A stretch of 64,000 nucleotides of DNA. It comes from Prevotella sp. Lineage in GTDB: Bacteria; Bacteroidota; Bacteroidia; Bacteroidales; Bacteroidaceae. The stretch covers positions 1 to 64,000 of the forward strand of contig JAFRRN010000034.1 of assembly GCA_017428055.1 (NCBI GenBank). Direction: 5' to 3'. Positions 3 through 13,464 of this stretch are shown here, one piece after another (position 1 is the stretch's first letter; every line of letters begins with the position of its first letter). The position numbers were made by a program, and so were the translations under genes. The notes under the pieces were generated by a model that saw only the letters and a list, made by a program, of their open reading frames with translations, searched no databases and was not told where the DNA came from.

Positions 3-1238
3 AAATACAAGGAAATGCTCGTCAATCTCAGCAAGGGAAATCCTTTCACTTATGAGATGGTACGTGTGGCTGTCACCACAGGCAATTCCAATATCGAGGT
101 TGCCAAAGAAGACAAGTCTTTTATCGGTATTTGGCAAGAATACATCTATCACCTTCAGAACGACGATAACGGCAAGCGTTATTCTACAAGCGACAGCTAC
201 ATCAGTGCATTGAACTCCTTCCAAAAGTTCTTAGGGAAGGATACCATCAAGGGGTTTAATATCAGTGTGGCTGAAATACAGAAATGGAAGGATTGTATGT
301 CTAATGGCATTAAAGGTAAAGACGGCAACAGCGAAGGACAAATATCTGATGCAACTGTTGGACTTTACCTTCGCTCCTGTCGCACCATATGGAATCTCTG
401 TCGCAGTCAGGGATATTTGTTGGATGTGACCTATCCCTTCTCGAATAAGAAGGAGAAAAATCTTGTCAGTATTCCGCGAGGCAAGGTGAAGAAGAAAGTC
501 TATCTGAAACGAGAACAGTTTACGGAACTATACCATGTGTTTATCAACAAGAACTACCCTGAGACCTGGAAGGAGGGCTATGCAGAAAGAGCACATTATT
601 CCCTTGGATTATTCCTTGCCCAGTATCTTTGCAATGGTTTTAATCTTGCTGATGCTGCACGTTTGCAGTATAACGACTATTATTTCCAGACGGGTAGAAG
701 GGCATTCCTCTTCAACCGCAAGAAGACAGCAGACAGGAGTTCCAATAATTCCGAGGTCGTTATACCTATCATTGAGCCGTTGCAAGTTATACTTGATGAA
801 ATCGCGGCTCCTCCCACCCTTGGAGGTTATGTATTCCCACAGATATTCAATGGGGAGACAAGTGAAAAAGTAAGAAGGAAGCTAACGGCACAGGAAAACT
901 CTAATGTTAAAGACCGTGTGACCAAGATATGTCACGATGTACTTGGATGGGACAAAGCAATCTGCCCGTCAGGAACCTGGTGCCGTCATTCGTTTGCTAC
1001 AAACCTCCGTAATGCTGGTGTAGAGAAGACTTACATTGATGAGAGCATGGGGCATTCCAGCAATTCAAACGACATGACCAATGTGTATCTGGACACATAC
1101 CCGATTGAAATGCAGATGGAGTACAACTCCAAACTGCTTGTCCTCGACACGAAATCTGCCGAGCGGGATGAACTGATGTCAAAGCTCTCAAAATTGTCAA
1201 ATGAGGAGTTAACACAGCTTCTCGCAAAAGCCATGTAG
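3..1238 (+). CDS. Site-specific tyrosine recombinase/integrase, 5' end cut by the window
   Basis: DNA strand-exchange enzyme of the phage-integrase family, expected to integrate and excise the surrounding element. The frame is open to the window edge and the first ATG (position 15) falls inside what looks like the arm-binding region, so the true start probably lies upstream. A SAM-like core-binding domain spans about residues 38-140 counted from that ATG. The catalytic C-terminus shows R324 in TWCRHSFAT, H347 in MGHSS and the nucleophile Y358 in NVYLDTY. The place where Arg I is expected (YLCNGFNLAD, about residue 207) has Asn. The Bacteroides conjugative-transposon integrase IntDOT is also known to lack Arg I, so this need not mean inactivity. 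The next gene starts 24 bp downstream. Confidence 0.9.
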   Translation, partial: KYKEMLVNLSKGNPFTYEMVRVAVTTGNSNIEVAKEDKSFIGIWQEYIYHLQNDDNGKRYSTSDSYISALNSFQKFLGKDTIKGFNISVAEIQKWKDCMSNGIKGKDGNSEGQISDATVGLYLRSCRTIWNLCRSQGYLLDVTYPFSNKKEKNLVSIPRGKVKKKVYLKREQFTELYHVFINKNYPETWKEGYAERAHYSLGLFLAQYLCNGFNLADAARLQYNDYYFQTGRRAFLFNRKKTADRSSNNSEVVIPIIEPLQVILDEIAAPPTLGGYVFPQIFNGETSEKVRRKLTAQENSNVKDRVTKICHDVLGWDKAICPSGTWCRHSFATNLRNAGVEKTYIDESMGHSSNSNDMTNVYLDTYPIEMQMEYNSKLLVLDTKSAERDELMSKLSKLSNEELTQLLAKAM

Positions 1239-4644: not shown

Positions 4645-5619
4645 TCATAATGTTAATGCACCTACAGGGTTATCGGGGTCATAGGTAAACATTCCTGATA
4701 AGATCATGTTTTGCAACTTATATTCAATTTTTCCGAAGACCGAGCGACCATATATATCAGACTTGTCTGATTGCAAATCAGGATTCATAAGTTTTAACTT
4801 ATTGTATGTGATACTATTCCAAAATTGAAAAATAGTGTTCAGCTCTTTAGATAACCCCGTTTCCTCACGGTCAAATGCAGGAAAAACGTAATTGTAGAAC
4901 AGCTGTCTGTTTTTCCTGTTTTCAGGATAGTTAATCCACAATTTTGAATCTTTAATGTGGGTTGAAGAATACTTAATTCCAGCAATTTTCTCTTCATTAT
5001 TACTATCTCGATTATAACGGACAAGACTTTGAAGTAGCATCTGTGGTATTATATATTCGGGCTTAAATGGATCGTTTGGGAATTGCACGGGGAATGAGCA
5101 GGCAAGTACCAAGCAGTCTGCAAACTTCTCGCTAGTAAAATGGTAATGCTCCTTATTTGAAAGATCAACAACTTTAACTGTGGTAGTTGTCTTGAATAAG
5201 GCAAAATTAGCATAATCGATATCCGGACGTCGCATTTCTTCCCAACAAACATATACGGAAGAACCAAGATAAAGTGACGGAAATCCCGACATACTATATC
5301 TTTCATTTCCGACTTTGTGATTGAATTGAAATGGAATATGAGACATTTCTTCGTTGGATGTAAATTCCTCGTATCCATTTTTCCCTACTCTCATACGATA
5401 AAGGGAACTATCTTTTTGTATAGTTCCTAAACGCAATGAGTCAACATTCTTTATGAACAGAGTATAGAAGGTCTCAAACGCATCGGCTTGACAACCTGAC
5501 AAATACTGATCAATAACATGAATTAACTCCGTCCATATTATTGAAGTGTTTGCTCTGTCAAGTTCTCTGTACCTTTTTGTAAGAGCTCTCATTCTACAAT
5601 CAATAGTCTTTACCTCCAT
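4645..5619 (-). CDS. RES-domain protein (putative NAD+-consuming effector)
   Basis: RES domains are ADP-ribosyltransferase-like toxins; characterised members (MbcT, Res of Res-Xre) destroy NAD+. The N-terminal ~65 residues are helical, as in longer RES proteins with HEPN-like N-termini. RES features follow: LYRMRVG (R75, R77), RYSMSGFPSLYLGSS (R107, S109, G112), acidic residues E127/E128, the core segment IPQMLLQSL (191-199) and terminal GIKYSS (214-219) with its conserved serine. It is last in the minus-strand defence-like operon, 67 bp after the 155-aa gene. No Xre antitoxin is adjacent; the operon's own XRE gene lies 7 kb upstream. The effector role in this operon is inference. Confidence 0.75.
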   Translation of the reverse strand: MEVKTIDCRMRALTKRYRELDRANTSIIWTELIHVIDQYLSGCQADAFETFYTLFIKNVDSLRLGTIQKDSSLYRMRVGKNGYEEFTSNEEMSHIPFQFNHKVGNERYSMSGFPSLYLGSSVYVCWEEMRRPDIDYANFALFKTTTTVKVVDLSNKEHYHFTSEKFADCLVLACSFPVQFPNDPFKPEYIIPQMLLQSLVRYNRDSNNEEKIAGIKYSSTHIKDSKLWINYPENRKNRQLFYNYVFPAFDREETGLSKELNTIFQFWNSITYNKLKLMNPDLQSDKSDIYGRSVFGKIEYKLQNMILSGMFTYDPDNPVGALTL

Positions 5620-5686
5620 ATTCGAGTTTAACCAGATTCACGCTGATTTCTACCCCCAATTTATATGAAACATGTTACTACAATTA

Positions 5687-6154
5687 TTAGGAAGTACATA
5701 TTTTATTTATTTCCTCCTTTATCTCCTCATACCTTTTGTCCATATAGCTTATCAATTTATAGAACAGGGTTTCCTCGTCAAGGTGCTCGGTGTAGTCTTT
5801 AAGGATACCAAAACCTGTGTTGGCACACTTCTCGGCAAGGTTATACACCTCATCGCGATTGCAAATGTTGTCAATATTTTCAGGATTTTCTTTTAGCTCC
5901 TTGTCATAGTACAGGCACGAAAGCAACGGCTCTACATTGGTCAGGAATTCTGTGCGGACAATAGATTTCGTTGCTCCTACCGATGATATAGGTGTAGGCT
6001 CTTTCCCCTCCATCTCGCAGAGTGCGATGGCGAAGCAGTAGAGGTCTGTACGCGATGCGGCGTTTTTGTGGAGCTGAAAATACTTGGTCTTCTCGATGTT
6101 CTCAATAAAACCGTCGTCGTAAGCTTTTGCGATATTTAATGTTACTCTAGCCAT
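5687..6154 (-). CDS. Unknown 155-aa protein paired with the DndD-like ATPase
   Basis: No firm family assignment. It is soluble and helical, starts MARVTLNIAKAYDDGF, and has a central stretch KNAASRTDLYCFAIALCEMEG (about residues 30-50) that recalls DndE-type small subunits, which also sit beside dndD; this resemblance is weak. The C-terminal half is charged and probably helical. Only 5 bp separate its start from the stop of the ATPase gene, so tight coupling and a physical partnership are likely. It could act as a DNA-binding or regulatory subunit of the ATPase. Confidence 0.7.
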   Translation of the reverse strand: MARVTLNIAKAYDDGFIENIEKTKYFQLHKNAASRTDLYCFAIALCEMEGKEPTPISSVGATKSIVRTEFLTNVEPLLSCLYYDKELKENPENIDNICNRDEVYNLAEKCANTGFGILKDYTEHLDEETLFYKLISYMDKRYEEIKEEINKICTS

Positions 6155-6159
6155 AATTC

Positions 6160-8139
6160 TTACTTTATTACTGTTATACCATCTTCGATTGCTAACCTGT
6201 TGAACGAAGCATATTGGCCTTGTAAGGCTGCTGCCACCTTATCGTCGTACTCTACGGGCGTGAACGTCAGAATCACCTGTTTGGACTTGGCTATCTCACA
6301 GAGAGTATTGACAAAGTTCAAGCGGTTGTCCTGATCTACGCGGCCTATAGGTGTGTCGATGAACAGCAGGGAGTCGTGCATTGACACTTTCTGCAAAGCC
6401 AACGTAAACGACAGGGCCAGCAATGCACGTTCAGCAGCGCTACATGAGCCAAGCGTCTGCGAACCGTATTTGTCGAGCAGACGGAAGGTGTAATCCTCCA
6501 GAATCTCCACCTTAGAGAAAGCATCTTTCTTCCACAACAAGCGGGAGAATGTGTCGAACGTCTCCTGTTCCATTTCCCGACGACTCTCTTCCAGTAAGTC
6601 AAGACGAGTCTCTTTTAAAACATTCCTACATACCTTGCAATACTCTGCCTGCTGATTTATTTTCTCCAGTTGTTTGTTCTTTTCAATGAGAGACTTCAGT
6701 AGTTTACTTTGATTGTAGAATTTATTATCAAGCTCTTTCTTGTGTTCCTCTTCAACACCTTTCTTCGCAACTATATCGTCACGCTTTTTGCGATATTCTT
6801 TTTTATCTTCGATGGCCTTAGTCACAGCTTCAGTATTAGGGATATTCATCAGGTAGATGTTCAGCTGCTTCTCCTCTTCAAGGTACTCTGTGTATTGTTT
6901 TCGAAGTGCCTTTTCTTCCTCCATCAAAGCGATACGCCGTTCCTGATAATGTGACAGCTTATCAATATACTGACGCAATACCACTACCGATTTGTTCAAC
7001 AGAGCAGATGTCTCCGACGACACTTCAAGTTCTTTTCTAAGTTCTTGAATAAAACTATATGAATGGTCGCTTAAGTCTTGGTCACAAATCAGACAATGTT
7101 TGTGTTCCTCGATTGCCTGAAGCAGGAACTTGTCTATGCGGGGTGGCAGCTTGCCGTGCTTGTCTTGCTCCTGAATGTAGGTGTATAGATTCTTGATGGC
7201 AGGATATAGAGCGAAATATTGAACATATTCGCGTACAAACACCATCATTTCTGATTTCTTCTTGGCTATATCTGCCTTCAAAGAGTCAATCAAACCTTCC
7301 ACCTCTTTCAGCCTTGATGTTTTCTCTGAAACATGAATATGTCCGCTGATAATACTATCAAGCGTTGAAATTTCATCGTCACAATGATGAATCTGTGTCG
7401 TCATTGCTTCAATAGAGGTAGAACATGCATCTATGGCCTCCTGTATTTTATCCAACTCTTTCTGTGCGGTCGAAATATCCTTGACAGAAGAATTGGCAAT
7501 TTGAGGATTTAAAACGCCTGTCAGATAATTATTAAAAGCAGCTTCAGCTTTCTCTATAATTACAGCTTGCGTTAATTCCTCTATGCCATTTTTTATATTG
7601 TCTGATTGTCCAGCTCTAAAATAGTTTTCAAGGTGCTCACCATCGAAGAAAATGTATTCATGAATCTCTTCTGGTACGTTTCTTTTAACGAGAGAAAGCG
7701 TTTCTTCTTCAGATTCAATAGAATTCCACTCACCATTAATAAAATGCATAATGGTAAATTTTGTGTCAACGGATATTACAGCATCTGTTGTCACATTGAA
7801 TTTTCCTACTCTCTGAAAAAGAATTTTCTCAGAGGCATCGTCTGATGAAAAAGTGATTTTCACAATTGCCTCACCAATCACACTTCCGCCTTCTGGTAGA
7901 TGCGTACGCAGTTCTTGAACCTTCTGGTTGTTCAATATAGCAAGTGCGGTATTCTTATCACCCAAGTGCATTTCCGTGTCGTAAAGGCACCAAGTGATTG
8001 CATTGAGCACATTCGTCTTACCTACGCCGTTGTTAGCGAAGATGATATGCAAGTCATTTTCCCCATTGGAATGAGGGAACTTGAATGACAGATTGCGATA
8101 CTGACGAAAATTCTGAATTTCAATACTCTCTATTCTCAT
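6160..8139 (-). CDS. DndD/Rad50-like SMC-type ATPase with zinc hook
   Basis: Double-strand-DNA-associated ATPase of the SMC/Rad50/DndD class. The N-terminal half-site has FRQYRNLSFKF and Walker A ANNGVGKT (residues 35-42), then the segment EYIFFDGEHLENYF typical of DndD-like proteins. Long coiled-coil arms run about 200-340 and 365-530, separated by a CLIC zinc hook (C349, C352). The C-terminal lobe carries the ABC signature region (LGSCSAAERALLALSF) and Walker B LLFIDTP (about 590). In Dnd systems DndD couples ATP hydrolysis to DNA modification or restriction, but no dndB, dndC or cysteine-desulfurase gene is seen here. It lies between a 49-aa gene (4 bp) and the 155-aa gene (5 bp). Confidence 0.85.
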   Translation of the reverse strand: MRIESIEIQNFRQYRNLSFKFPHSNGENDLHIIFANNGVGKTNVLNAITWCLYDTEMHLGDKNTALAILNNQKVQELRTHLPEGGSVIGEAIVKITFSSDDASEKILFQRVGKFNVTTDAVISVDTKFTIMHFINGEWNSIESEEETLSLVKRNVPEEIHEYIFFDGEHLENYFRAGQSDNIKNGIEELTQAVIIEKAEAAFNNYLTGVLNPQIANSSVKDISTAQKELDKIQEAIDACSTSIEAMTTQIHHCDDEISTLDSIISGHIHVSEKTSRLKEVEGLIDSLKADIAKKKSEMMVFVREYVQYFALYPAIKNLYTYIQEQDKHGKLPPRIDKFLLQAIEEHKHCLICDQDLSDHSYSFIQELRKELEVSSETSALLNKSVVVLRQYIDKLSHYQERRIALMEEEKALRKQYTEYLEEEKQLNIYLMNIPNTEAVTKAIEDKKEYRKKRDDIVAKKGVEEEHKKELDNKFYNQSKLLKSLIEKNKQLEKINQQAEYCKVCRNVLKETRLDLLEESRREMEQETFDTFSRLLWKKDAFSKVEILEDYTFRLLDKYGSQTLGSCSAAERALLALSFTLALQKVSMHDSLLFIDTPIGRVDQDNRLNFVNTLCEIAKSKQVILTFTPVEYDDKVAAALQGQYASFNRLAIEDGITVIK

Positions 8140-8143
8140 AGTG

Positions 8144-8293
8144 CTATATGGATTTCATTATTTTGTCAATAATTCGTTTACCTTGACGACCTTCTTCTAT
8201 GCCAGAAAGTACACTCTCGATGTTCTTCTGCATAGCGATATCAGACATCGTCTTATCTGCTATCTTCGTTAGGATTTTCTTGCTAATGGCCAT
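8144..8293 (-). CDS. 49-residue microprotein between helicase and ATPase genes
   Basis: A short open frame from ATG (complement of 8291-8293) to TAG (complement of 8144-8146), encoding MAISKKILTKIADKTMSDI.. and ending in ..IIDKIMKSI. It begins 1 bp after the helicase stop codon and ends 4 bp before the ATPase start, filling the gap exactly as a true operon member would. The product is basic, amphipathic and predicted helical. No family recognised; it may be an adaptor or antitoxin-like peptide. Without it the operon would have a lone 155-bp gap. Confidence 0.6.
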   Translation of the reverse strand: MAISKKILTKIADKTMSDIAMQKNIESVLSGIEEGRQGKRIIDKIMKSI

Positions 8294-8294
8294 A

Positions 8295-10415
8295 TTAGTC
8301 TAATGAATTTATTACTGTTAGCGCATCTATTGAATTGATTGCATTTTCCGCAATTTCTTTAAGACGTACTTGTTCTTTCGCCCTTATCTTGCGTTCAAAA
8401 GCAACACTATCATCGTCCACAGAATGTATCGTGTCAACGCAAATGTCGTAAAGTTTTGCCGACAGTTTGTTGGGACTTTGGCGTATAATACGACCTATTC
8501 GCTGAACATACTCACGTGGATTTGTACTGGAAGCCATCAATATTCCCACGTCTGCAGTTGGAATGTCTATGCCCTCGTCCATACACTTGATGGCAACGAG
8601 GACCTGATAGTCTCTGGACTTGAACTTCGATATGATATGCTCCCGTTCTGACTTGTTCCCAAAGCGTTTCTCTGCCTTGGTTCCTTCTTTCTCGGTCAAC
8701 TTATGGAAGATGATTCCCCTTGATGCCAGGATATCAAGCACCTCTTGTATTTGTTGGGGTGAGACAAAGATAATCAAGTTCTCTATTCTGCCCTTTACTT
8801 GTAGTTCATCGAGAATCACCTCCAACTGGTTGTATTTTGCAGAAGCATTCCTGATGATGTTTGCCCTCTTCTCCATCATTCGCTCTAATAAGAGAGCTGC
8901 ATCTGGGTTATTATCTTTCTGGTTCCACAGTTTTCTAATCTTTGCGGAGATTTCCTTGTATTGCTCTGTCTCTTCCTCGTTGAGAGAGACCTTGGAAATG
9001 AGATAATGGTAATTGACAAGGAAATGCTTACCTGTCATCGGGTTGTATTCCGTCAACGCATCTTTAATGGTAAACTCAAAATTTGCATTTCCATAGAATG
9101 CCACAAGCTTGGCTGTACCAGCATCATCAAACCAACGGCTTGGAGTGGCACTAAGTCCAATCCTATATTTGTAGCAAGCCAACAATGCCTGTTGGAATTT
9201 TCGTGCTCCCAGCCAATGGGTTTCGTCACCCACAAACAAGACATCTGTACCATTTGGAAGGTTCTGCTGAATCGCATTTGTGAACTTTTCTGATGATGCG
9301 GTATTGTGCGTTGTATATAAGCAGATGTGGTCTGCCATACCAGCTCTGTTCTTCAACAACAACTTAACTAATAATTCATCCCATTTTTGTACAGAACCGT
9401 CAACAATAACACTCTCGTCAAACGACAATTTCTGAGTGTCCACTTCGTCTTTCCATTGCTTGGAAAGTGTGTTCTGCGGAGTGGTTATAATTGTAATGAG
9501 CCGTTTCCTTGTTTCGTTCAAATACTTGATACCAGCTATGGCAGTTCTAGTCTTTCCTGTACCAGTAGCCATTTCGAAGAGCAGCATATAGTCATTAGCC
9601 TTCCATTTGTTCAACGCTTCGGCTTGATAGAAGAACAGTTTCCTGTCGCTCTTGAAATCAAAGCCCTTCATGCGGATGGCACGATATTTCTTCAAAGAAA
9701 TACTTTCCCTGTCAAAATCGGAGGAATAGTGAACTATATTCGACTTAATGGCTGACGGGAGATTATATACCTTCACATTTTTTCGCTCGCCGTTCCATAT
9801 CTCATCGAATCGCTTCTTATCTCTCTCGAAATACTCACAAGCATCCGTCCATTCCTTGAACACTTTAAATTCTTCGTCATTATTGACCCATGCAGATGCA
9901 GTTTCGTTAATGGAGCCACTAAATGACATTTCATTTCCTTCGGTATCTTTTAGTATTCCCACCTTTTGATGGAATAGCCCCTTCTCGGATATTGTTTCGT
10001 TGTCACAGATGCTGCCGTCATCATTAAAGACTACGGCCAATTTCATTTCAAGCAATCCAGAGGCAAGCATCCAGCCAAGAGCCTTAACGTGGTTTTTCTC
10101 AAATTCATTTTCAAGATTTTCCAAATCAAGCCCAAAATCAGATGGTGACAGAGAAGAATCATTTGCGACAATCTTCTTGACGATCTCAATGTCTTCTCCA
10201 TTTAGCCGTGGACTTGTAATAAGCCTCATTCTGCCACCATTAACAATAAAGTCAGCAATGCCACGGGCAGCTACAGCTAGGGATGTGGAGGAAAAGAATC
10301 CTGCAATCCTGTCATACTGCACCGCAGCACCAAGGACTGGCACATAGTAATCCTCTATTATGTCATCTACACCAGATTCATAACATGGTTTAATATGTAA
10401 ATCCTTAAAGCTCAT
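8295..10415 (-). CDS. PLD-type nuclease domain fused to SF2 DEAD/DEAH helicase
   Basis: The N-terminal ~200 residues form a phospholipase-D-like domain with one HKD motif, HQKVGILKD (H149, K151, D157), followed by FSGSINETASAW; such half-sites usually dimerise into a nuclease. A superfamily-2 helicase follows: Walker A ATGTGKT (283-289), DETH box (397-400), motif III SAT (422-424) and arginine-finger motif QRIGRIIRQ (about 638-646). PLD-helicase proteins occur in several phage-defence loci and probably translocate on and cut foreign DNA. Its start overlaps the radical SAM stop by 11 bp. Mokosh systems pair or fuse an RNA helicase with a C-terminal PLD; here the PLD domain is N-terminal. Confidence 0.85.
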   Translation of the reverse strand: MSFKDLHIKPCYESGVDDIIEDYYVPVLGAAVQYDRIAGFFSSTSLAVAARGIADFIVNGGRMRLITSPRLNGEDIEIVKKIVANDSSLSPSDFGLDLENLENEFEKNHVKALGWMLASGLLEMKLAVVFNDDGSICDNETISEKGLFHQKVGILKDTEGNEMSFSGSINETASAWVNNDEEFKVFKEWTDACEYFERDKKRFDEIWNGERKNVKVYNLPSAIKSNIVHYSSDFDRESISLKKYRAIRMKGFDFKSDRKLFFYQAEALNKWKANDYMLLFEMATGTGKTRTAIAGIKYLNETRKRLITIITTPQNTLSKQWKDEVDTQKLSFDESVIVDGSVQKWDELLVKLLLKNRAGMADHICLYTTHNTASSEKFTNAIQQNLPNGTDVLFVGDETHWLGARKFQQALLACYKYRIGLSATPSRWFDDAGTAKLVAFYGNANFEFTIKDALTEYNPMTGKHFLVNYHYLISKVSLNEEETEQYKEISAKIRKLWNQKDNNPDAALLLERMMEKRANIIRNASAKYNQLEVILDELQVKGRIENLIIFVSPQQIQEVLDILASRGIIFHKLTEKEGTKAEKRFGNKSEREHIISKFKSRDYQVLVAIKCMDEGIDIPTADVGILMASSTNPREYVQRIGRIIRQSPNKLSAKLYDICVDTIHSVDDDSVAFERKIRAKEQVRLKEIAENAINSIDALTVINSLD

Positions 10416-12519
10416 AATCTATAGATTCCTTTATTGTCTGAATGATAGTATTGACATTGGAACGCCTCCTTACCTGCGTGGTGTGAGACAATATGCTGAG
10501 TATTTCATCACGTACTTCATCTGTGGCACCAGCCATGAAGTAGTTCTGAATGAAGGGGATGTATAAGCAGAGTTTGGGCAAAATGTTCCTTCTGTCGGAC
10601 TCGCTAAGTTTAACAAAGCAACTGCCCAAAGAATTGGCATTTCCTCGACATTTCTCAAATCGGCAAAGCCCCAGCTGTGCAGCTGTCTTCATGTGGTTTT
10701 CGCCATACTTCTTATCTGCAACATCCTTTCGTTTTTCATCACGAAGCATATAGCCCATCTTGGAATAGTCAACATCATTTATGCCGCAGTTCTGAAGCAT
10801 GTAGGGTACAGTGTAATATGCATCCTTGAAGTCGCTAAACTGCGAGATATCCTTCTTGTCAACCTCCGTTGGCTCAAAGCCATCTTCGATGATTTTCAAT
10901 ATCTCACTGCATTTGTACCTTTTGAGAACTTCCAACAGCAAAGCACTTTTCTTTTCGTCCTCCAAAAGGCTGGCATCCGAATGTGTATAGAACACCTTCA
11001 ACAAGGCTCGTTCGTTTGCGCTATTGCCGATTAGATTATCCCAGAACTCGCTGTTCAAAGTGTACTTCACTCCTTCCAGGGTTATCTCTGTATCACGATA
11101 CCATAAGTTAGAATCTATCATCTGCTTAAACGACATATTGAAAAAAGACAAAAACAAATCTTTGTGTTCCTTGAATTGGTTCAGGAAGTCCACTACAGTC
11201 CTTAGAGGTGTGGATATTCCAATTTCTTTGTAGTACCCGTTATTATAGTCCTCCATGAATTCTTCATAAGTTTTCAGCCGTGACGGTTCGCGGCCAAGGG
11301 TATGTTCTTCCCAGAAGGTCTGGTTCTTATAGCAGAACTGCCAGAAGGAAAGGTTGCGAAAGAAGCCGGGCTGGTTACACCAGCGGGCTATCTGCACATA
11401 GATATTGGGCAGTGGAGCCTTCTTGTAATCTTCATGGCGCATGATGTACGGAAGGCATCCGTATCTCATCAGCACACAGATACGCATGAAAATCTCAGCA
11501 ATGTCCAATTGGAATTTCTTGTATTCATTCTCCGATTGATGGAAACCACAGAACAGATAGAACTTCGTTTCTTTCTTGGGACAATAATGCTTCCATATTT
11601 TCAGGGCTCTAACTATGAGTTTGCGGTCAAACCAGTTGTCAAAGGCAAAGATGAAGTCGCCATGATAGTTCGCACTTGCCAACTTTCTTGCCATATCCTC
11701 ACCACGTTTGTGTTGTGCCAGCAATCGTTCGTCAAGTCCCTGTCGGAACTGGAAAGGTCGTTTCGTTGCTATCAGCTCGTCGAGCAATGGTTCCCAATAG
11801 GGCGAAGCCAGGAAGTTGTCATCCCAGAGGTAGATGTAAGGGCGCTTCAACTTTCCTGTTGTCTCGTCAATCTCATTGTCAAGGAAATCGCTTAGTTTGG
11901 AGTACGGCATGGCCTTGCGTTCCAACTTGTTCACGCAGAACGGACAGCGACGGAAACAGCCACGCGTCAAGAAACCAATAGAGTATTCCTTGTAGTCCTT
12001 GTAGTACGCATCCGATGCCTTCACGTTCTCCATCACGCTGACGAAATCATCATACAGGTGATAGTCAGGCATCTGTGTCTGCATGTTAATACCATAGCCA
12101 CCAGACTTATTCTTAAGCGTATTCAGGAATGCATCTTTCTCCAACCGTTGCATATCCTCTTCACGTTTCTCAGCAAATCCTTCTTCTACAGAAAGATTCG
12201 CATAAGTGCCAGTACCACCCATGCGGACTCGCTTTGAGAGTTTCTTGTCGTTGAGAAGAGTCGTTAGCACAAGTGGAGGGTCATCGATGGTAAAGGTAAA
12301 AACGCATGAGACATAGAAGTAGTCGTACTTCTGCAACTCCTCGAAGTTGCTTTCATTCGTAATCAGTTCATAGCAGCAGGCATCGTCAGTATAGCCACGT
12401 ACATAACCATTATCCCTGAAATATCCGGCAATCTTCAATAGCGCAAGGTTAGGGTGCCGTGTCCCGTTGCATAACAGGTCGGCATCCACAAGCCCTATCT
12501 TTATCTTTCTTCTCGCCAT
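10405..12519 (-). CDS. Radical SAM enzyme with B12-binding-like N-terminal fold
   Basis: Fe-S/S-adenosylmethionine enzyme. The N-terminus (1-150, starting KIKIGLVDADLL then HPNLALLKIAGYF) resembles the Rossmann-like cobalamin-binding domain of class-B radical SAM proteins, but I see no DxHxxG cobalamin ligand. The cluster motif is CFRRCPFC (C188, C192, C195; CX3CX2C) preceded by IGFLTRG, followed by a TIM-barrel-like region (YIYLWDDNFL, FRQGLDERLL). A large C-terminal extension (about 400-704) includes a cysteine group near 620-640 (LCRFEKC, then SCF) that could hold a further metal centre. Substrate unknown. It overlaps the helicase by 11 bp and starts 5 bp after the 95-aa gene, so it belongs to the same operon. 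Confidence 0.85.
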   Translation of the reverse strand: MARRKIKIGLVDADLLCNGTRHPNLALLKIAGYFRDNGYVRGYTDDACCYELITNESNFEELQKYDYFYVSCVFTFTIDDPPLVLTTLLNDKKLSKRVRMGGTGTYANLSVEEGFAEKREEDMQRLEKDAFLNTLKNKSGGYGINMQTQMPDYHLYDDFVSVMENVKASDAYYKDYKEYSIGFLTRGCFRRCPFCVNKLERKAMPYSKLSDFLDNEIDETTGKLKRPYIYLWDDNFLASPYWEPLLDELIATKRPFQFRQGLDERLLAQHKRGEDMARKLASANYHGDFIFAFDNWFDRKLIVRALKIWKHYCPKKETKFYLFCGFHQSENEYKKFQLDIAEIFMRICVLMRYGCLPYIMRHEDYKKAPLPNIYVQIARWCNQPGFFRNLSFWQFCYKNQTFWEEHTLGREPSRLKTYEEFMEDYNNGYYKEIGISTPLRTVVDFLNQFKEHKDLFLSFFNMSFKQMIDSNLWYRDTEITLEGVKYTLNSEFWDNLIGNSANERALLKVFYTHSDASLLEDEKKSALLLEVLKRYKCSEILKIIEDGFEPTEVDKKDISQFSDFKDAYYTVPYMLQNCGINDVDYSKMGYMLRDEKRKDVADKKYGENHMKTAAQLGLCRFEKCRGNANSLGSCFVKLSESDRRNILPKLCLYIPFIQNYFMAGATDEVRDEILSILSHTTQVRRRSNVNTIIQTIKESIDYEL

Positions 12520-12524
12520 CTATT

Positions 12525-12812
12525 TCAGTTAACCATAAAATCGTTCTTATTCAGGCAGACAAGATAGTCATCGCCTACCAATACAAGAATATCGGTTTCT
12601 GGTTTTGACCAGTTTGCCAATTCTTCGAATCCCATATCCAACGCCTCCTTTGGATGAACCTCACGCCATCCATCTTTGACTGCAACCTCATTCAGCTTCT
12701 TGGCGATATCTTCTTCCACTAAGTCTATCAGGCTCATCCACTCCTGATACATCCCCCCAATGGGTATCTTTATGCTTGCTTTTTCCATGATTTCGTTCAT
12801 TCTTACAAACAT
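12525..12812 (-). CDS. Small hypothetical protein of the radical SAM operon
   Basis: A 95-residue acidic protein, not recognised. The N-terminus (MNEIMEKASIKIPI) is followed by a helical segment (about 20-45, EWMSLIDLVEEDIAKKLNE) and a beta-rich end (ETDILVLVGDDYLVCLNKNDF). It begins 2 bp after the XRE regulator stop and ends 5 bp before the radical SAM gene. It could be an accessory factor or substrate peptide of the radical SAM enzyme, since small proteins directly upstream of such enzymes are often substrates; it lacks the glycine leader or repeated Cys/Ser pattern of known peptide substrates, so I regard this as a weak idea. Confidence 0.7.
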   Translation of the reverse strand: MFVRMNEIMEKASIKIPIGGMYQEWMSLIDLVEEDIAKKLNEVAVKDGWREVHPKEALDMGFEELANWSKPETDILVLVGDDYLVCLNKNDFMVN

Positions 12813-12814
12813 TT

Positions 12815-13042
12815 TTAAAAGTTTTGCGACAAGAGAAATTGTTTATACTCTCTAACCAACAATTCTTTGATGTCAACTTCCAATAGATCTGCAATCTTTA
12901 GCAAACATGCGACATCAGGTTGAGAAGAGTTCGTGCACCATTTGCTGACAGTGGAAGGATTCACATCCAACTGTTGCGACAGCCATCGGGCTGTGCGCTT
13001 CTTTTCAACCAATACCAGTTTTATTCGGTTTATATCTTCCAT
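12815..13042 (-). CDS. XRE-family helix-turn-helix regulator
   Basis: First gene of the operon. ATG at 13042 is preferred (MEDINRIKLVLVEKKRTARW) because the longer frame begins with TTG at 13063, inside the predicted -7 box. The 75-residue protein is essentially one Cro/CI-type domain: WLSQQLDVN (helix 2) and PSTVSKWCTN (recognition helix), then LLKIADLLEVDIKELL. This regulator type heads many Bacteroidales restriction and defence operons. It probably autoregulates the downstream genes. Confidence 0.85.
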   Translation of the reverse strand: MEDINRIKLVLVEKKRTARWLSQQLDVNPSTVSKWCTNSSQPDVACLLKIADLLEVDIKELLVREYKQFLLSQNF

Positions 13043-13380: not shown

Positions 13381-13390
13381 ATTTTCAGTG

Positions 13391-13464
13391 TGGACCAGCC
13401 AGGGCTTGAACCTGGGACCTCCAGATTATGAGTCTGTTGCTCTAACCAACTGAGCTACAAGTCC
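13391..13464 (-). tRNA. tRNA-Met (CAU), elongator type
   Basis: The complement begins GGACTTGTAGCTCAGTTGG and folds as a cloverleaf: acceptor GGACTTG/CTGGTCC (with G-T and one mismatch), D-arm AGCTCAG..GAGC, anticodon stem CAGAC/TCTGG (A-C-free outer pairs) with loop containing CAT, and T-arm with GTTCAAGC. Discriminator base is A; CCA is not encoded (CAC follows). The body resembles elongator Met rather than initiator (no C1-A72 mismatch) or tRNA-Ile2. Its 3' end faces the accessory region, the usual side for integration. Confidence 0.9.

Follow-up and report, generated by a model that had tools for sequence, protein, structure and literature searches.

A radical SAM enzyme ahead of PbeABCD in a Prevotella integrative element: a candidate DNA-marking module shared by several restriction systems

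A minus-strand operon of a Prevotella sp. genome combines PbeABCD, a known DNA-attacking defence system of the CxC-ATPase type, with a large radical SAM enzyme, and its novelty lies in this partner: the gene ahead of PbeABCD encodes the radical SAM enzyme, not Dnd proteins or a DNA methylase. The operon was found in a stretch of 64,000 nucleotides, here called the window (contig JAFRRN010000034.1, assembly GCA_017428055.1), from a genome of 106 contigs that is 93.57% complete. The order radical SAM-PbeA-B-C-D is more than a chance arrangement, because it recurs in four phyla (Bacteroidota, Bacillota, Actinomycetota and Lentisphaerota). With a probability of roughly 0.6, we read the locus as a two-module restriction system carried by an integrative element, in which the enzyme would mark self DNA and PbeABCD would check for the mark.

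The features of the locus are given in Table 1. As the first-pass annotation had described, all eight ORFs are open on the minus strand, and the recomputed gaps agree with the tight packing that it reported (67, 5, 4, 1, -11, 5 and 2 bp in the order RES to XRE), the RES-like gene being the only one set apart. An upstream TTG start would lengthen the XRE ORF to 13063. The operon sits between a tyrosine recombinase gene at the left contig end, accompanied by DUF6043 and DUF3853 genes (Pfam), and a tRNA-Met, to the right of which the first genes are host-like (dockerin and DUF5013, Pfam). The 3' half of the tRNA-Met is duplicated on another contig (G000:C51:2024-2076, 92% over 53 bp), a pattern that fits integration of an element at a tRNA, and the two copies probably lie at its opposite ends. 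An element with integrase and replication genes had been proposed; the integrase is present, and no replication gene was identified by Pfam among the five left-end ORFs scanned.

Table 1. Features of the operon and of the element that carries it (window positions)
Feature	Position	Strand	Evidence
Tyrosine recombinase of carrying element	15..1238	+	Phage_int_SAM_5 7.2e-7; Phage_integrase 8.3e-5
RES-like protein, 324 aa	4645..5619	-	PF08808 21.1 bits; PHROG 7835 1.4e-37
PbeD, DndE-like small protein, 155 aa	5687..6154	-	profile comparison with PbeD-position proteins
PbeC, DndD-like ABC ATPase, zinc-hook type (CxxC at 349, 501)	6160..8139	-	PADLOC PbeC 3.2e-81; motifs
PbeB, small protein, 49 aa	8144..8293	-	place and size; a homologous ORF at 17 related loci
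PbeA, HKD (PLD) nuclease domain and SF2 helicase	8295..10415	-	PADLOC PbeA 1e-205; motifs
Radical SAM enzyme with C-terminal domain, 704 aa	10405..12519	-	PF04055 4.7e-4; PHROG 9298 8.7e-35; conserved positions; changing partners
95-aa protein, unknown fold	12525..12812	-	ORF; homologues 5' of radical SAM gene in other loci
XRE-family (Cro/CI HTH) regulator, 75 aa from ATG at 13042	12815..13042	-	Pfam HTH_26 3.7e-7; HTH_3 1.2e-6
tRNA-Met, likely attachment site	13390..13464	-	ARAGORN

Regarding the core of the operon, the earlier statement that no named system has this gene set is wrong for half of the genes. The PADLOC matches to PbeA and PbeC, a profile match for PbeD, and the fitting places and sizes of the proteins identify the helicase, the 49-aa protein, the ATPase and the 155-aa protein, at the level of sequence, as PbeABCD. 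The helicase and the ATPase had been correctly recognised. The helicase carries ResIII and Helicase_C domains, a PLDc_2 match below the Pfam cut-off, and the motifs HQKVGILKD at 149 (HKD/PLD), GTGKT at 285 and DETH at 397 (SF2 helicase); it is 28% identical to a PbeA from a Pbe locus without radical SAM. The ATPase, described as DndD/Rad50-like with a zinc hook, matches AAA_23/SMC_N and has the CxxC motifs CLIC and CKVC; it is the DndD-like PbeC, an ABC ATPase of the CxC clade. The 155-aa PbeD itself matches no PADLOC model at E 1 and a solved-structure search returned nothing usable, and profile comparison of its family with the proteins in the PbeD position of six Bacteroidota Pbe loci that lack radical SAM gave a probability of 93 (E 3.5e-7). 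PbeB, in these systems a small and fast-evolving protein, is identified by its size and its position between PbeA and PbeC.

In the systems described in PMC6459918 and PMC10853773, PbeB is a small protein and PbeD is DndE-like with 152 aa. PbeABCD was first described, by the account in Xiong 2019 (PMC6459918), next to phosphorothioation genes as DndCDEA-PbeABCD, and CxC ABC-ATPase-DndE systems (Rakesh 2024, PMC10853773) are also known beside cytosine methylases. In the survey of PMC6459918, dndCD was nearby in 233 of 553 PbeAC, so the PbeABCD core does not require phosphorothioation genes. The haloarchaeal PbeABCD of that report spared phosphorothioated viral DNA, and no viral DNA cleavage was observed there for this phosphorothioate-Pbe system. 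The window operon has the same four genes in identical order and with similar sizes, but at the window we found no phosphorothioation genes or cytosine methylase and a radical SAM gene instead.

The radical SAM part of the enzyme comprises approximately residues 1-480 and is followed by a C-terminal domain at about 530-704. PHROG 9298 covers residues 7-396, the PF04055 match is under the Pfam cut-off, and the cluster motif CxxxCxxC (CFRRCPFC) lies at 188-195, with its three cysteines in all 51 aligned rows; the call of a large radical SAM enzyme is therefore confirmed. Among solved structures none is similar to it by sequence. As to cobalamin dependence, residues S71 and GG101-102 resemble cobalamin-binding relatives, but a clear DxHxxG is missing. 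Sulfur insertion giving a phosphorothioate was set aside, since radical SAM sulfur insertion is known from C-H bonds and not from phosphates. In 14 Pbe loci the C-terminal domain is part of the enzyme itself, and in others it is a separate gene. It is also found elsewhere, in a sigma-70-like protein (L021) or in a PLD-domain protein (L088) that has weak similarity to AAA_assoc_C.

A genome scan identified 154 relatives of the radical SAM protein. The best 80 were assigned to classes from ORF clusters and BLAST, and representatives were checked against PADLOC or Pfam models; this is the best-scoring half, and the counts lean to close relatives. The 80 loci form 69 clusters at 90% identity. Among the 395 genomes of the phylum searched, the protein appears at 1e-15 only in the window's own. 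PbeA and PbeC on the enzyme's strand, with the enzyme preceding PbeA, occur in 18 of the best 80 loci; PbeA is directly next in 14 of these, and a split C-terminal-domain gene lies between in four (L033, L085, L090, L095). DrmA accompanies the enzyme in 21 loci, which are DISARM-like. DrmB was found in 19 of the 21; unlike DISARM, the operon includes a NERD-helicase (18/21) and a protein of about 800 aa (21/21), and a methylase was seen only in the sister operon L230. DndF, DndG and DndH follow the enzyme directly in 13 loci, an arrangement that is not seen at the window and in which DndC-type probes match none of the loci. A ParB-SNF2 module is present in 10, lying upstream of the enzyme in L081, and a PD-(D/E)XK nuclease gene in three, next on the same strand in L088 and nearby on the opposite strand in L089 and L092. 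Together, the five partner classes account for 65 of the best 80 loci. In six others the radical SAM gene is followed by a NERD-helicase, with the DISARM-like operon stopped by the contig edge. The remaining nine are other or uncertain (L084, L086, L093, L094, L098, L099, L100, L044, L102): L099 contains a DrmB fragment, in L044 no DrmA occurs in the 8.9 kb after a NERD-helicase-like gene, and the Pbe genes of L102 are convergent with the enzyme, its PbeA falling outside the enzyme-linked clade.

Some of these arrangements deserve a short description. The ParB-SNF2 module, in which a pair of ParB-like proteins and a 137-aa protein go with an SNF2 helicase, is conserved and was observed in L021, L034, L035, L048, L069, L078, L081, L087, L091, L097 and L101; in L021 the SNF2 helicase is the sole protein that resembles a known defence protein (ZorD/DpdE). 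The pair of a NERD-helicase and a protein of about 800 aa without Pfam match is found in L020, L230 and the DISARM-like loci. The 808-aa form is absent from the 395 genomes of the phylum, a set that is uninformative for it, and the DrmB stretch of L066, cut at the locus end, has no PADLOC match at 1e-20. L088 (9359-12154), L089 and L092 each have a radical SAM gene and a PD-(D/E)XK gene, plus the PLD-domain protein in L088, and could be minimal restriction-modification pairs.

A control search identified PbeA in 10 of the 395 genomes of the phylum besides the window's own. The window's radical SAM protein has no hit in the 10 stretches that hold it (13.6 to 20 kb each), and seven of them have a PP-loop ORF, classed by the SGGxDS motif of DndC-type proteins. 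Among the three without one, L121 has a DndB-like gene and L123 resembles a helicase on its own; in control locus L117 the PP-loop gene may be cut at the edge. With three DndC-type probes at 1e-5, no PP-loop gene was found in the 80 radical SAM loci. C5-methylase probes, few in number, match two of the 80: in L048 the nearby methylase was confirmed by Pfam, and in L095 a weaker relative is a probe match alone. L046 and L093 have methylase motif matches only. The first-pass annotation had excluded Dnd, and rightly: DndC (TIGR03183) has no match in the window's 93.6% complete genome, and by this measure no linked or genomic phosphorothioation genes were found. What it had overlooked is Pbe, the sister system of Dnd.

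The partners of the enzyme change often. On an enzyme tree of 81 rows, built by a quick method with SH-aLRT support only, the five classes require at least 20 changes, with L102 labelled as Pbe and the NERD-helicase loci including L044 labelled as DISARM. When 'other' and phage labels are added, 26 changes are needed against a mean of 46 in shuffles, so the labels are clustered on the tree and yet switch often. Enzymes that are 90.7% identical lie beside DndFGH in L055 and beside DrmA/B in L047 and L096, and two that are 87% identical have DndFGH (L040) and DrmA/B (L046) as neighbours. Enzyme-linked PbeA proteins fall into a single clade of 19 rows with support 100 (one long branch was flagged), separate from those of eight sampled loci without it.

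The most direct evidence for a marking role is a single case, the sister operon L230, whose first gene encodes a C-5 cytosine DNA methylase (PF00145, 1.9e-36) in the place of the radical SAM gene. The operon is otherwise homologous, with a NERD-helicase (2e-90), a protein of 828 aa that matches the family profile at 7e-31, DrmA and DrmB. It belongs to a search in which DrmA was present at 1e-30 in seven of 199 genomes of kin, one of them being the radical SAM locus G087; the remaining five, some cut by contig ends, have neither radical SAM nor NERD-helicase in the sequence examined.

Phages also carry the family. A viral scan with the single protein as query gave no relatives, and one with an alignment as query gave 100; among 80 of these viral contigs the ORF was found in 78, forming 50 clusters, which were used as dereplicated representatives. 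A ParB-fused or C5 DNA methylase flanks the enzyme in 32 of the 50 and is adjacent on the same strand in 21, and 12 have an S-adenosylmethionine synthetase-like gene; for both calls one member each was checked by Pfam. The phage family PHROG 9298 is shared with the window enzyme over the residues given above, but most of its members lack Pbe neighbours and many are near DNA methylases. An exception is the viral contig L137, with radical SAM-PbeA-PbeC-PbeD, and it suggests that radical SAM-Pbe systems may travel on phage-like elements. A second viral contig with a defence partner, L141, has ParB-SNF2.

The genes at the head of the window operon are recurrent but not constant. The XRE regulator, already recognised as such, has HTH_3 and HTH_26 matches, and 16 of the loci searched have an XRE-like ORF in the 2 kb on the 5' side of the radical SAM gene. 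The 95-aa protein has no Pfam, PADLOC, NCBIfam or PHROG match. Among 82 loci that offer 300 bp or more of upstream sequence, 19 have a homologue of it 5' of the radical SAM gene (L020 and L031, both among the 19, are one contig): 10 are DISARM-like, five DndFGH, two Pbe, one ParB-SNF2 and one other. With only two of the 18 Pbe loci having it, its place as a fixed second component is weakened; it is a possible accessory of the radical SAM enzyme. Conservation of the neighbours, on which the proposal of a system depended, thus applies to the radical SAM gene and PbeABCD, which recur together; XRE and the 95-aa gene are in a minority of loci and RES is in none.

In the mechanism that we propose, the first module would consist of the radical SAM enzyme and its C-terminal domain, headed here by XRE and the 95-aa protein, and it would use radical chemistry to place a chemical group on the cell's own DNA, a C-H position being the most likely site. 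DNA is the presumed substrate because of the genes with which the enzyme keeps company. The second module would be PbeABCD, in which the ATPase/DndE-like pair PbeC-PbeD would scan DNA and, where the mark is missing, PbeA with its HKD nuclease and helicase would block or cut the invader; PbeB would have a regulatory function. Attack on unmarked DNA by Pbe is modelled on one haloarchaeal phosphorothioate system, as reported in PMC6459918. More broadly, there is an even chance that the locus represents a whole restriction class, in which DNA marking would be the task of an interchangeable radical SAM module whose C-H radical mark would be read by PbeABCD, DndFGH, DrmA/B, ParB-SNF2 or small nucleases, and which phages would carry too.

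Other explanations were weighed against this one. The enzyme could modify a protein or tRNA, or sense infection, and act as a switch for the adjoining restriction module instead of marking DNA. No structural relative fixes its substrate, which is deduced from context, and the occurrence of the C-terminal domain in a sigma-70-region protein and in a PLD-domain protein would agree with a regulatory role; the DNA methylase in the enzyme's slot in L230 and the methylases often near the phage relatives speak for marking, and we regard a switch as rather unlikely. Since prokaryotic viperins are radical SAM defence enzymes (as presented in PMC12926258), the enzyme might also be an effector that makes a chain-terminating nucleotide and is stacked beside other defences. 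We consider this quite improbable and rejected a viperin identity, because its matches in Pfam, NCBIfam and PADLOC (E up to 1) include no viperin model, the enzyme is mostly the first gene in operons of several different restriction modules, and phages carry it as well. The same gene content would be predicted if the enzyme labelled or altered the DNA of an invader, or the precursors of that DNA, and its partner destroyed what had been labelled, as in modification-dependent restriction. Such a labelling enzyme is not expected in phages, and the PbeABCD described in PMC6459918 spares phosphorothioated viral DNA, which makes this reading highly improbable.

The first-pass annotation had joined, as a hypothesis, a DNA- or nucleotide-modifying radical SAM step to a RES suicide effector consuming NAD+. 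Genomic context upholds a defence operon with a possible DNA-modifying step, and the effector part is not supported. That all eight genes form one unit ending in RES deserves very little credence: the RES gene is on the same strand, 67 bp after PbeD, but a search of the 80 radical SAM loci gave no RES relative even at E 1, although at least 1 kb past the last Pbe gene was available in 15 of the 18 same-strand Pbe loci. RES relatives occur in three of 198 genomes of kin, with no radical SAM or Pbe match within the 2.3-3.8 kb seen. It is probably a separate neighbouring cargo, and was rejected as a component of the system. A RES-Xre toxin-antitoxin pair was also rejected, as XRE and RES are at opposite ends of the operon with six genes between them. 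The RES-like protein itself scores just below the PF08808 cut-off of 23.2 bits and fits PHROG 7835, of unknown function, far better than Pfam RES.

According to Rakesh et al. (PMC10853773), systems of the DndD/CxC type may in some cases 'mediate entirely different modifications'. The window locus and its relatives offer a concrete candidate enzyme for such modifications, testable by mass spectrometry, and if the marking reading is true the DNA mark that the enzyme makes may be a new one. In the open-access papers searched, we found no report of a radical SAM enzyme paired with PbeABCD, DndFGH or DISARM, and one may be published elsewhere. Elsewhere in the window's genome, a 540-aa frame (G000:C21:2280-3197) matches the HerA end of DndH with E 3.5e-30.
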